From Solidesulfovibrio carbinoliphilus subsp. oakridgensis (GTDB taxonomy: Bacteria; Desulfobacterota; Desulfovibrionia; Desulfovibrionales; Desulfovibrionaceae): a DNA stretch of 64,000 nucleotides. Position numbers and translations under genes: made by a program. The stretch covers positions 496,001 through 560,000 of the forward strand of contig NZ_CM001368.1 of NCBI RefSeq assembly GCF_000177215.2. The letters run 5' to 3'. Each line of letters begins with the position of its first letter. Within the stretch, counting starts at the first letter, position 1. The notes under the pieces were generated by a model that was not told the origin of the DNA, made no database searches, and worked only from the letters and a program-made list of their open reading frames with translations. Positions 8,041 to 11,362 of the stretch are shown piece by piece.

Positions 8041-8919
8041 TCAGACCAGTTTGGCCTCGGTGAGGGCGGCCTTCAGCTTCTCCAGGTTCTGGGGCTGCAA
8101 GGGCACCATGGGCAGGCGCGTTTCGAACGGGAACCGGCCCATCAAATCCAGGGCCATTTTCGCGGGCACCGGGTTGGTTTCGAGAAAGGCCGCCCGGAAA
8201 AGCGGGCTCATGGCGTAGTGGAGCGCCTTGGCTTTGGTCAGGTCGCCCGCGGCCACGGCCTCGCACATGGCCGACATCTGGTGCGGCATAAAGTTCGAGA
8301 CCACGGAAATGACGCCCCGGCCGCCGATGGCCATGGTCGGCAGGGCCGTGAAATCGTCGCCGGAAAGGACCATGAAGTCCTCGCCGCAAAATTCCAGCAC
8401 CCGGGACACCTGGTTGAGGTCGCCGGTCGCCTCCTTGACCCCGACCACCTGCCGGATCTCCTTCTTGAGGATGGCCAGCGTCTCGGGCAGGAGGTTGACG
8501 GCCGTGCGGCCCGGCACGTTGTAAACGATAAAGGGCATGTCCACCCGCTCGCCGATGGCCTTGAAATGGGCCACCAGCCCGGCCTGGGTGGGTTTGTTAT
8601 AGTAGGGCGTGATCAGAAGCGCACCGTCGGCCTTGGCGTCCTTGGCGTCCTGGGTCAGCTCTATGGCCTCGCGGGTATTGTTGGACCCGGCCCCGGCCAG
8701 GACCGGCACGCGGCCCTTGACCTGGTCCACGCAGATCCGGATCACCCGTTTGTGCTCGTCGTGGGAAAGCGTGGCGGATTCGCCCGTCGTGCCGCAGGGA
8801 ACAAGGCCATGGATGCCCTGCTCGATCTGCCATTCGATAAAGGCGCGGTACGCCTCTTCATCCACCTCGCCGTTTCGAAATGGCGTCACTAGTGCGGTGA
8901 TTGCGCCCCGAAACTCCAT
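8041..8919 (-). CDS. dapA: 4-hydroxy-tetrahydrodipicolinate synthase
   Basis: A 292-residue class I aldolase of lysine/diaminopimelate biosynthesis, condensing pyruvate with aspartate semialdehyde. The N-terminus MEFRGAITALVTPFRNGEVD, the substrate loop PCGTTGESATLSHDEH, the tyrosine block ITPYYNKPTQAG, FIVYNVPGRTAVN, and the Schiff-base lysine in QVVGVKEATGDL are all present. The start has AGGAGGT just upstream. The gene appears monocistronic: a terminator follows it and a noncoding stretch with two palindromic repeats precedes it. Confidence 0.96.
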   Translation of the reverse strand: MEFRGAITALVTPFRNGEVDEEAYRAFIEWQIEQGIHGLVPCGTTGESATLSHDEHKRVIRICVDQVKGRVPVLAGAGSNNTREAIELTQDAKDAKADGALLITPYYNKPTQAGLVAHFKAIGERVDMPFIVYNVPGRTAVNLLPETLAILKKEIRQVVGVKEATGDLNQVSRVLEFCGEDFMVLSGDDFTALPTMAIGGRGVISVVSNFMPHQMSAMCEAVAAGDLTKAKALHYAMSPLFRAAFLETNPVPAKMALDLMGRFPFETRLPMVPLQPQNLEKLKAALTEAKLV

Positions 8920-9267: not shown

Positions 9268-10152
9268 CTACTGGAACATCTGCTGGATGGCCGGGTCGGC
9301 GGGGTACTGGTCGTCGAGGCTGACGACGTCGGCGATGAAGTCGGTTCCGGATTTCCAGACGAAGCCGGGCGTGCCGGGCAGGGTCAGGATGTCGAGGCGG
9401 TTTAGGGTCTTGCCTTTGATGTAGGCCCGGGACCACAGCGTCTTGCCGCTGGCCGAGGTGCGGCCGGCGGTGCCGGCGTTGGGGCCGCTGCCAAGGAGCA
9501 GGTCCAGGGCGTCGGGGTGGCTGTCGAGGAAGGCCTGCTCGTCGCCCATGCCCCAGCCGCTGATGCCGAGGACCAGTTTGACCTTTGGCCGCAGGCTCTT
9601 GGCGGCCGCGTCCACGGCGGTGGCCAGTTCGGGCGGCACGGCGGTTTTGGGGTCGGGCGAGACCGGAAAAAAGACGATGCCCACGGGCAGGCCGCCGGCC
9701 TGGACGATGGCGATCTCAGGCTTTTGGCCAAGGACGGTGAAGCCGGCCGGCAACGGCGCGTCGGCCTTTTTCAAATAGGCCGCCTCGTCCGGGTTCAGGG
9801 CCCCGGCGGTGTAGCCGAGCAGCGTCATGGCCTGGCTGAGGGCGGGCAGGCGTTTGGGATCGGGCTTTTGTTCCGGCCCGTCGGGCAGGACTTCAAAGGG
9901 GCCGGACAGGAGCAGCACCTTGTCCTTGAGGGAGGGGGCGTCGCGAAGGGTCTTGATGAAGGCGGCCCGCCGGGCCAACCCGCCGATCAGCTTGCCGCCT
10001 CAGGAGGGGCACGGCGCGAAGTTGCCGTAGGTGTTGCCGGTAAAAAGGACGGTGAGAAGCGGTTCGGCCGCCCGGGCCGGCAGGGCGGCCAGGGCCAGGA
10101 CGAAAGCGGAGGCGAGGGCGGCCGTTACGGCGCGTGAAAACGTCTGTTGCAC
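9268..10152 (-). CDS. UshA-like periplasmic selenoprotein with CxxU motif (in-frame UGA at 10002-10000)
   Basis: Read through an in-frame TGA this is a 294-residue protein: signal peptide (QQTFSRAVTAALASAFVLAL...ARA), then LLTVLFTGNTYGNFAPCPS-U-GGKLIGGLARR, ending DPAIQQMFQ. Residue 51 (UGA) aligns exactly with Cys46 of the neighbouring paralogue (CPTC), giving C48-P-S-U51, and a SECIS-like hairpin follows the UGA. Both flanks are collinear with the paralogue, so a nonsense mutation is less likely. The fold resembles the N-terminal part of UshA-type 5'-nucleotidases, but the metal-binding NDxHG is GNTYG and the later metal-site residues are not evident, so a thiol/selenol redox role is more likely than phosphatase activity. 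The start is GTG at 10152, with GAGG upstream. An annotator ignoring Sec would call only 9268..9978. Confidence 0.85.
9961..10002 (-). promoter_or_regulatory. Candidate bacterial SECIS element with its UGA codon
   Basis: Directly after the UGA (10002-10000) the mRNA can fold: GGCGGC (9999-9994) pairs with GCCGCC (9966-9961), and inside it GGC (9984-9982) pairs with GCC (9975-9973), closing the six-base loop GGGUUG. The loop starts 18 bases after the UGA with two G residues, which fits published bacterial SECIS rules. The Cys paralogue keeps the inner GGCGGGTTGGCC (it encodes GGLA) but lacks the outer stem. Confidence 0.65.
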
Positions 10153-10211: not shown

Positions 10212-11078
10212 CTAGAAGAGCTGCTCCACGGCCGGGTCCTGGGTGACGGTCTCGTCCAGGGGATCGACCTTGGCGACGAAGTTCTCGCCCACTTTCCAGG
10301 CGAAACCGGGCTGTCCGGGCAGGGCCAGCAGGTCCAGACGGTTCACGGTCTTGCCCTTGATGTAGGCCCGGGTCCACAGTGTCTTGCCGTCTTTGGAGGT
10401 CCGGGAGGAGAAGCCCGAGCCGCCGCCGCTGCCAAGCAGCACGTCCACGGCGCCCCCGCGGGTGTTGACAAAGGTTTCCTCGTCCAGGGCACCCCAGGGG
10501 CTTATGCCGACAACCAGGGCGACCTTGCCGCGCAGTTCGGATGCGGCCCTGGCCGTCTGGTCCATGAGCTTGTCCGGCACCGGGGCGCTGACGTCTCTTG
10601 GCATGGGGAAAAAGACCAGTCCCACGGCCTTGCCGCCGATGGTGACGATTTTGGCGGTCGGGGCCTGGTCGAGGACCACCGCGCCCTTGGGCGGGGCGGC
10701 CTTCTTGTCGGCGAGGAGCTTCACCTCGTCCGGGGTGACGGCCATGACGTCGTAGCCGAGGGCCTCGTGGGCCTTGACCACGGCCGGCATTTTCTCGGGC
10801 TCCGGCGGCGCGGACGAGACTTCGGGCAGGAATTCCCAGGCGCCGGCCACGGCCAGGATCTTGCCGGCGGTGGCCGGATTCTGCCGCAGGGCCTTCAGAT
10901 AGGTGGAGCGTTTGGCCAACCCGCCGAGCTTCTGGGCCCCGCAGGTCGGGCAGGGGTCGTAGTAGCCGTAGGTGTTGCCGGCGAAAACGATGGTCAGGGC
11001 CGGGTCGGCGGCGAAAGCCTGGGAAACGGTCATGGCCAGCGCGGCCATGACCCCGAAGAGGATGGAGGATGTGCGCAT
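10212..11078 (-). CDS. UshA-like periplasmic protein, cysteine (CxxC) paralogue
   Basis: A 288-residue protein with a signal peptide (ILFGVMAALAMTVSQAFAAD) and mature start LTIVFAGNTYGYYDPCPTCG. It is collinear with the downstream selenoprotein: GGLAKR, GKTLWTRAYIKGKTVNRLDLLALPG and a C-terminal DPAVEQLF are shared. Cys43 and Cys46 form the CPTC motif where the neighbour has CPSU. As there, the phosphoesterase metal-site motif is degenerate (GNTYG for NDTHG). Its stop is 59 bases before the next start, and its start is only 8 bases behind the HU stop, suggesting an HU-UshA(Cys)-UshA(Sec) transcript. Function is not established; a redox or thiol-relay role is inferred from the motif. Confidence 0.85.
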   Translation of the reverse strand: MRTSSILFGVMAALAMTVSQAFAADPALTIVFAGNTYGYYDPCPTCGAQKLGGLAKRSTYLKALRQNPATAGKILAVAGAWEFLPEVSSAPPEPEKMPAVVKAHEALGYDVMAVTPDEVKLLADKKAAPPKGAVVLDQAPTAKIVTIGGKAVGLVFFPMPRDVSAPVPDKLMDQTARAASELRGKVALVVGISPWGALDEETFVNTRGGAVDVLLGSGGGSGFSSRTSKDGKTLWTRAYIKGKTVNRLDLLALPGQPGFAWKVGENFVAKVDPLDETVTQDPAVEQLF

Positions 11079-11086
11079 AGGCGTTC

Positions 11087-11362
11087 TTATTTGTTAAGGT
11101 ATTCCTTGAGTTCTTTGCCGGGGCGGAAAAAGGGCAGCTTTTTGGGAGCCACGGTGACCACGTCCCCGGACTTGGGGTTGCGGCCGGTGTAGCCTTTGTA
11201 GCCTTTGATCTTGAAGCTGCCGAATCCCCGGATTTCCACCCGGTCTTCGTTGATAAGCGCCTGTTTGACGGAATCGACAAAGGCGTTGACGATGTCGGCC
11301 GCCTCGTCGATATGCAGGTCCTTGGTTTCGGCCAGGGTTTTGATGAGTTCGCTTTTGTTCAT
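11087..11362 (-). CDS. HU/IHF family DNA-binding protein
   Basis: A 91-residue histone-like protein: NKSELIKTLAETKDLHIDEA, then the conserved RVEIRGFGSFKIKGYKGYTGRNPKSGDVV arm region and FFRPGKELKEYLNK at the end. The RNPKSGD segment is the beta-ribbon arm that inserts into the minor groove and bends DNA. The ATG at 11362 with GAGGA upstream gives the normal family length; a longer in-frame extension upstream has no homology. Whether it is HU or an IHF subunit cannot be decided from sequence alone. Confidence 0.93.
   Translation of the reverse strand: MNKSELIKTLAETKDLHIDEAADIVNAFVDSVKQALINEDRVEIRGFGSFKIKGYKGYTGRNPKSGDVVTVAPKKLPFFRPGKELKEYLNK

Follow-up and report, generated by a model that had tools for sequence, protein, structure and literature searches.

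The 64,000-nt stretch of Solidesulfovibrio carbinoliphilus subsp. oakridgensis analyzed here (the window) carries on its minus strand, at positions 9268 to 10152, a gene of the UshA-like (seleno)protein family 2, with a GTG start and 294 residues. Its frame holds one TGA, at 10002-10000 (minus strand), and is otherwise open. An earlier note on this DNA had described the frame in this way and had added that the TGA faces Cys46 of the adjoining paralog, changing CPTC to CPSU; both statements are borne out by the sequence. With the TGA translated as U (residue 51, the putative Sec51), the region reads ...LFTGNTYGNFAPCPSUGGKLIGGLARRA..., and by eye the N terminus of the product looks like a signal peptide ending in ARA-AEP. 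When both strands of the window were scanned for in-frame TGA codons with at least 60 open codons on each side and coding-like composition, this TGA was the only one returned, although the thresholds were our own and the scan is blind to Sec codons closer to gene ends.

Immediately upstream lies the tandem Cys paralog (10212 to 11078, minus strand; 288 residues, CPTC), with its Cys46 codon at 10943-10941. The pair is flanked by two conserved neighbors on the same strand, a gene for an HU/IHF-like DNA-binding protein upstream (11087 to 11362), named by its broad family only because its best model reaches 95.3 bits against a cut-off of 115, and dapA downstream (8041 to 8919; TIGR00674, 348.6 bits, cut-off 206.15). 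Among 72 loci of the family, the clusters of nearby open reading frames (ORFs) include HU-like (61 loci), MinD-like (50), dapA (44) and dapF (28) proteins, misses being due in part to short flanks, mostly of 1.5 or 3 kb. The cluster names come from one example each, which scored above the cut-off for dapA and below it for the HU-like, MinD-like and partial dapF proteins.

The product of the TGA-bearing gene matches the NCBIfam model NF049981 over its entire length (positions 1 to 262 of 262) with 287.3 bits against a cut-off of 140 (E 1e-85), and the paralog does so with 284.1 bits. All 64 of the proteins that make up our alignment A3 match this model at an E value of 0.001 or better, and the CxxU/CxxC motif of the family is found in the product as CPSU. 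The curated UshA-like family with Cys or Sec that the earlier note mentioned is real: it is NF049981, which has a longer relative, NF041198. In a 2026 review, NF049981 is given as CxxU and as "GenBank annotated" (PMC13188914), and our gene product resembles the family described there in its full-length match and its CxxU motif. Nothing in the comparison is disqualifying; what sets Solidesulfovibrio apart is its tandem copies, one with Sec and one with Cys. NF041198 (PCGU/CxU) is alike in this region and, by eye, has Sec at the same position, but the match is weak and covers the first 66 to 104 residues, with scores of 34 bits for the gene product and 42.4 bits for the paralog against a cut-off of 275; its model has 519 positions and a CxU motif, compared with 294 residues and CxxU here. 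Proteins of the NF041198 type are described as UshA-like COG0737 in two papers (PMC2398784, PMC9312934). In the literature searched there was no functional description of NF049981, its accession occurring in PMC13188914 only, and neither a substrate nor a partner nor a phenotype came to light. The gene joins an already catalogued selenoprotein family, whose function is a matter of inference. Since NF049981 is already curated, novelty is limited, and what is added here is a reassigned SECIS, a Sec/Cys tandem pair and a degraded metal site.

We found a family match in 65 of 99 genomes (the present one included). By manual count, at least one TGA copy is present in 63 of these 65, and the other two, G021 and G040, have a Cys copy alone. 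Of the 86 aligned members, 3 of which come from named metagenome-assembled genomes beyond the 99, 64 have TGA at position 51 and 22 have Cys (TGC 21, TGT 1). An alignment of homologs had been proposed as a check on the gene, and it yields an exchange between Cys and Sec with no third residue. Pieces shorter than 150 residues are not counted (one is the short initial piece of a frameshifted G023 copy), while L057_p_2484 (a spurious second segment) and L098_m_2977 (the other G023 piece, extended into the wrong frame) were dropped from the 86, and L054 and L055 were omitted as repeats of L028 and L027. The part of the gene downstream of the TGA is under purifying selection in all seven close pairs compared (dN/dS about 0.14-0.37), whereas six of the seven have higher values, reaching about 1.2, in the upstream part that includes the signal peptide. 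A search of the plasmid collection found no relative.

The machinery for Sec decoding is complete in this genome. A search for selA, selB, selC and selD, also suggested at the outset, found all four: selA, selB and selD each gave one match over the curated cut-off (613.5, 358.2 and 331.2 bits, respectively), and tRNA-Sec (selC) scored 82.7 bits, has the anticodon UCA and is called tRNA-Sec by ARAGORN. The next two matches of the tRNA-Sec model, with 48.8 and 48.3 bits (cut-off 47), are tRNA-Ser. The selD gene of this genome (L021) has an in-frame TGA of its own within TAAGUAAK and is likely a selenoprotein gene; therefore, UGA very probably stands for Sec at other sites of the genome too. Across the family, selA is present in 57 of the 63 genomes with a TGA copy. 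The six without it (G010, G035, G039, G069, G077 and G096) are drafts of 67-96% completeness, and a tRNA-Sec match of 80-83 bits was found in five of them; the sixth, G035 (67% complete), has no such tRNA-Sec, its best match being a tRNA-Ser. As for the two genomes with a Cys copy alone, G021 is without selA and ARAGORN calls its best tRNA-Sec match (47.9 bits) a tRNA-Ser, so that the missing machinery agrees with Cys at position 51, yet G040 has both selA and tRNA-Sec. Hence, Cys at this position needs no loss of the machinery.

Two overlapping hairpins can be drawn after the UGA. The longer one (9961 to 9999, minus strand), with a GGGUUG loop starting 18 nt past the UGA, is the hairpin that the earlier note had described as fitting bacterial SECIS rules. 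It folds as stated, close to the lowest-energy structure, at -24.1 kcal/mol over 42 nt, a moderately unusual value (z -1.89) that 11 of 200 shuffled sequences equal or surpass. Its outer stem had been said to be absent from the Cys paralog and is largely so: of the 6 pairs, the 14 Cys copies of the genus have 1.93 on average and its 14 Sec copies 5.86. One SECIS-type hairpin is indeed under selection, but the best one for the family is the next hairpin 3', whose loop is GGC or GGA and not GGGUUG. This family-wide hairpin (9960 to 9981, minus strand) consists of a lower stem, an unpaired U (about 9977), an upper stem of 5 bp (GGCCC/GGGCC) and a GGC loop (9969-9971) located 28 nt past the UGA. 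In the 48 nt of our own sequence, the longer hairpin reaches -24.9 kcal/mol versus -13.5 kcal/mol for the family-wide one.

Of 63 Sec genes, 55 have all five pairs and the GG loop of GGCCC-GG(C/A)-GGGCC, and 8 do not have the full structure; in 2,000 shuffles of synonymous codons, complete hairpins numbered 4.2 on average and never more than 13, uncorrected for kinship. Among 21 Cys genes, 4 have the complete hairpin (shuffle mean 1.0; 28 of 2,000 shuffles reach 4), a faint remnant at best. Because of insertions, L089 and the L057 row with Cys are excluded from these counts. The same difference appears in the Arg codons that span the loop, the first of which ends in GG in 62 of 63 Sec genes versus 12 of 20 Cys genes, and the second in 55 of 63 versus 8 of 21; a control Arg eight codons further on shows no difference (10 of 45 versus 5 of 20). 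In 59 Sec sequences, 80.4% of the cells of the family hairpin (GG..U-GGCCC-GG(C/A)-GGGCC) are paired, compared with 39-57% when it is slid by 1-3 columns, and two-sided changes occur at four pairs; these figures apply to a hairpin that was picked after inspecting folds of the same sequences, and the tests ignore kinship. In 20 Cys sequences the family structure pairs 60.6% of the cells, no better than shuffles (232 of 500 reach it). Three other approaches were negative: RNAalifold did not recover the family hairpin from 59 Sec sequences (-0.21 kcal/mol, two other pairs), the minimum free energy of the 48 nt past the UGA, compared with synonymous shuffles after removal of identical stretches, hardly separates Sec (mean z -0.67) from Cys genes (-0.47), and no Rfam family matched the region.

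In the 2026 review (PMC13188914), the bacterial SECIS is constrained to a loop of 3-9 nt with G at its first two positions, an upper stem of 4-16 bp, a spacing of 16-37 nt and an energy of -7.5 kcal/mol or lower. The family hairpin fits this model, with a 3-nt loop starting with GG, a 5-bp upper stem, a spacing of 28 nt and about -13 kcal/mol. Nothing on the bulge or apical loop of the SECIS was found in the literature searched. It is probable that the family-wide hairpin, GGCCC-GG(C/A)-GGGCC, is the SECIS, and the family would thereby gain a SECIS that can be tested.

It is possible, although we consider it a good deal less likely, that the longer hairpin, with its GGGUUG loop, serves as the SECIS in Solidesulfovibrio. 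Besides lying near the lowest-energy fold, this hairpin pairs 65.6% of its cells in the 59 Sec sequences of alignment A1 versus 22-52% for slid versions, and the 14 Sec copies of the genus retain more of its six outer pairs than any of 2,000 shuffles (5.86, shuffle mean 5.13). Outside the genus, however, the outer stem is not clearly favored (177 of 2,000 shuffles reach the observed value), and the upper stem of the family hairpin is complete in all 14 Sec copies of the genus. Furthermore, a ribosome with the UGA in its A site would extend over the first part of the outer stem. As a whole, the longer hairpin has a small excess of pairs, both in all Sec genes (8.62 of 13 versus 7.96 shuffled; reached by 0 of 2,000) and outside the genus (7.84 versus 7.28; 1 of 2,000), which may be explained by the constrained bases that the two structures share. 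The family-wide hairpin remains our preferred SECIS, and the longer one may be a genus-level extension.

Considering the machinery, the exchange between Cys and Sec, the selected SECIS-like hairpin and the curated family, the UGA at 10002-10000 is almost certainly decoded as Sec. This is what the earlier note had proposed, and the reading is very strongly supported, about as secure as evidence of this kind allows. Bacteria do read through UGA at a low level, and the codon could in principle be read as another residue, such as tryptophan, or by near-cognate suppression. We regard this as very improbable, since the position aligns with Cys alone (22 of 22 members without TGA), selection on the hairpin is strong in genes with TGA and, in those with Cys, faint at most, and G021, with its Cys copy alone, is without selA and has a tRNA-Ser as its best tRNA-Sec match (cut-off 47); tryptophan was rejected on the homologs. 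Least probable of all, to the point of being negligible, is that the TGA is a true stop (a nonsense mutation, a decaying pseudogene or a sequencing error at 10000-10002) followed by a mere gene remnant or an independent short ORF, because, although translation table 11 ends the frame at the TGA and an ORF with a TTG start begins at 9978, the same TGA is shared by 64 of 86 homologs, which span several families of the order, purifying selection acts on the part beyond the TGA, and Cys is the sole alternative at position 51.

Sec and Cys appear to have been exchanged repeatedly at this position. The genus has 14 Sec/Cys pairs in 13 of its 14 genomes, two of them in G007 and none in G002 (69% complete). 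In a tree of the 86 members, calculated with position 51 masked and given a midpoint root for drawing only, the 14 Sec copies of the genus form one clade (100/99) and the 14 Cys copies another (100/100), and the two are sisters (joint support 99/96). The bootstrap had not converged completely, and support is weak for the forks immediately below the genus (87/52 and 85/87). Most simply, a tandem duplication preceded the radiation of the genus and one copy, the upstream one, swapped Sec for Cys. The Sec/Cys label changes five times on the tree, and the well-supported branches also force at least five changes; the direction from Sec to Cys is suggested by the higher frequency and wider distribution of Sec. 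A 2006 survey reports Sec-to-Cys conversions in only four families (PMC1794560), compared with at least five Sec/Cys changes in this single family. The tandem pair also makes a comparison of the Sec and Cys forms possible within one organism.

The partner Cys of the motif is not universal. Two members retain Sec without it (L059 with PIKAU and L091 with PEAGU) and have the hairpin, and in two more distant loci, L112 and L125, U is kept and the partner Cys is missing by eye. Sec may function without its usual partner Cys in these lineages.

An AlphaFold2 model built from 64 sequences, with Cys in place of Sec, has a mean pLDDT of 93. Its best PDB matches are the 5'-nucleotidases CD73 (E 1.4e-15, TM 0.66 by query) and those of snake venom; UshA (E 2.4e-12) is among the next ones, as is SoxB (E 1.3e-11). 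Sequence profiles weakly match the venom enzymes, SoxB and a Thermus 5'-nucleotidase (E 0.0006-0.008), and in one such weak profile alignment position 51 stands opposite a Cys of the venom 5'-nucleotidase. We take the ligand motifs of the dinuclear metal site of 5'-nucleotidases to be DxH, GD, GNHE, SHxG and GHxH, and the ligand columns are named from what we take to be these metal-binding residues. By the same weak alignments (E 0.0006-0.008), the column of the metal Asp has N in 71 and D in 6 of the 86 members, that of the first metal His has H in 4 of 86, that of the GD Asp has D in 3 of 86, and in three further ligand columns His is absent from the seven commonest residues. Pfam models of the metallophosphatase and nucleotidase C-terminal domains match 0 of the 64 members at E 0.01, the single Pfam match being to an unrelated glycosyltransferase model, and the C-terminal nucleotide-binding domain is absent from the 294-residue product, which has no Pfam match. 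The product would thus share the predicted N-terminal metallophosphatase fold of UshA, CD73 and SoxB and differ from them in having most aligned ligands replaced, no Pfam nucleotidase domain, and Sec or Cys instead. The name "UshA-like" used in the earlier note suits the predicted fold but not the metal site, given the replaced ligand positions and the lack of a Pfam nucleotidase domain.

The following picture is suggested by these observations. The gene product would be an NF049981 selenoprotein, probably exported, in which SelB with Sec-tRNA-Sec would read the UGA at 10002-10000 with the aid of the hairpin just downstream. Sec51 would lie about ten residues past the former first metal motif, normally paired with Cys48, and as most aligned ligands are replaced, it is the likely reactive group. 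From this we infer, together with Sec insertion itself and export, a role in periplasmic thiol/selenol redox chemistry or sulfur transfer. Chances are about even that in family 2 Sec, and not a metal, does the chemistry, and this offers a concrete mechanistic idea, that of Sec chemistry in a fold largely stripped of its metal ligands. More tentatively, and with the odds somewhat against it, family 2 may have turned the metallophosphatase fold into a metal-free selenoenzyme, with Sec, retained even where the partner Cys is lost, as the constant group beside a dead metal site; repeated replacement of Sec by Cys, in Solidesulfovibrio following the tandem duplication, would then have given rise to Sec/Cys pairs that divide roles between them.

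Improbable, in our opinion, is a product that has kept metal-dependent phosphohydrolase activity, or acts as a thiosulfohydrolase like SoxB, with Sec tuning or protecting the site. The fold does match CD73, UshA and SoxB, two of 64 members weakly match the SoxB family (best E 0.00031), and the first Asp is kept, by eye, in 16 of 40 more distant relatives. However, the ligand columns of family 2 keep few of these residues (Asp 6, first His 4 and GD Asp 3 of 86, and no common His in three more), and the Pfam metallophosphatase and nucleotidase C-terminal models have no match among the 64 at E 0.01. The SoxB literature contained no mention of selenocysteine among the matches listed.

Metal-free Sec chemistry is proposed here for family 2 and not for the wider group, because the Asp is kept in those 16 loci. 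The 40 distant loci were hand-picked, not drawn at random, from among the matches listed in the phylum, and by eye they have U at the matching position in 32 cases and C in 8, with the first-motif Asp in 16 and DxH in 2. The two with DxH just before the Sec position, L110 and L130 (by eye), bear a TGA and are possible intermediates between metalloenzyme and selenoprotein; if the metal-free reading is true, the wider relatives with Sec and the metal Asp may record steps away from a metalloenzyme. The NF049981 model matches 122 of 297 genomes of the phylum at an E value of 0.001 or better, and the family cut-off is passed in 4 of 297. Many of these phylum matches, among those listed, have one TGA, and candidates for UshA-like selenoproteins seem to be spread much more widely than family 2 alone.

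Some copies of the gene appear damaged or incomplete. A second copy in G023 (L098, G023:C2) is split over two frames, which could reflect either a decaying gene or a sequencing error, and the same genome has an unsplit copy elsewhere (L065). On a 21-kb contig (G000:C3), an ORF of 97 residues (L003:1516-1809) that resembles the C-terminal half of the family, with 41% identity to P0001, comes after a gene resembling, by eye, a methyl-accepting chemotaxis protein. This ORF looks like a truncated family copy, and matches to P0001 of equal extent and identity are present in G008 and G012.
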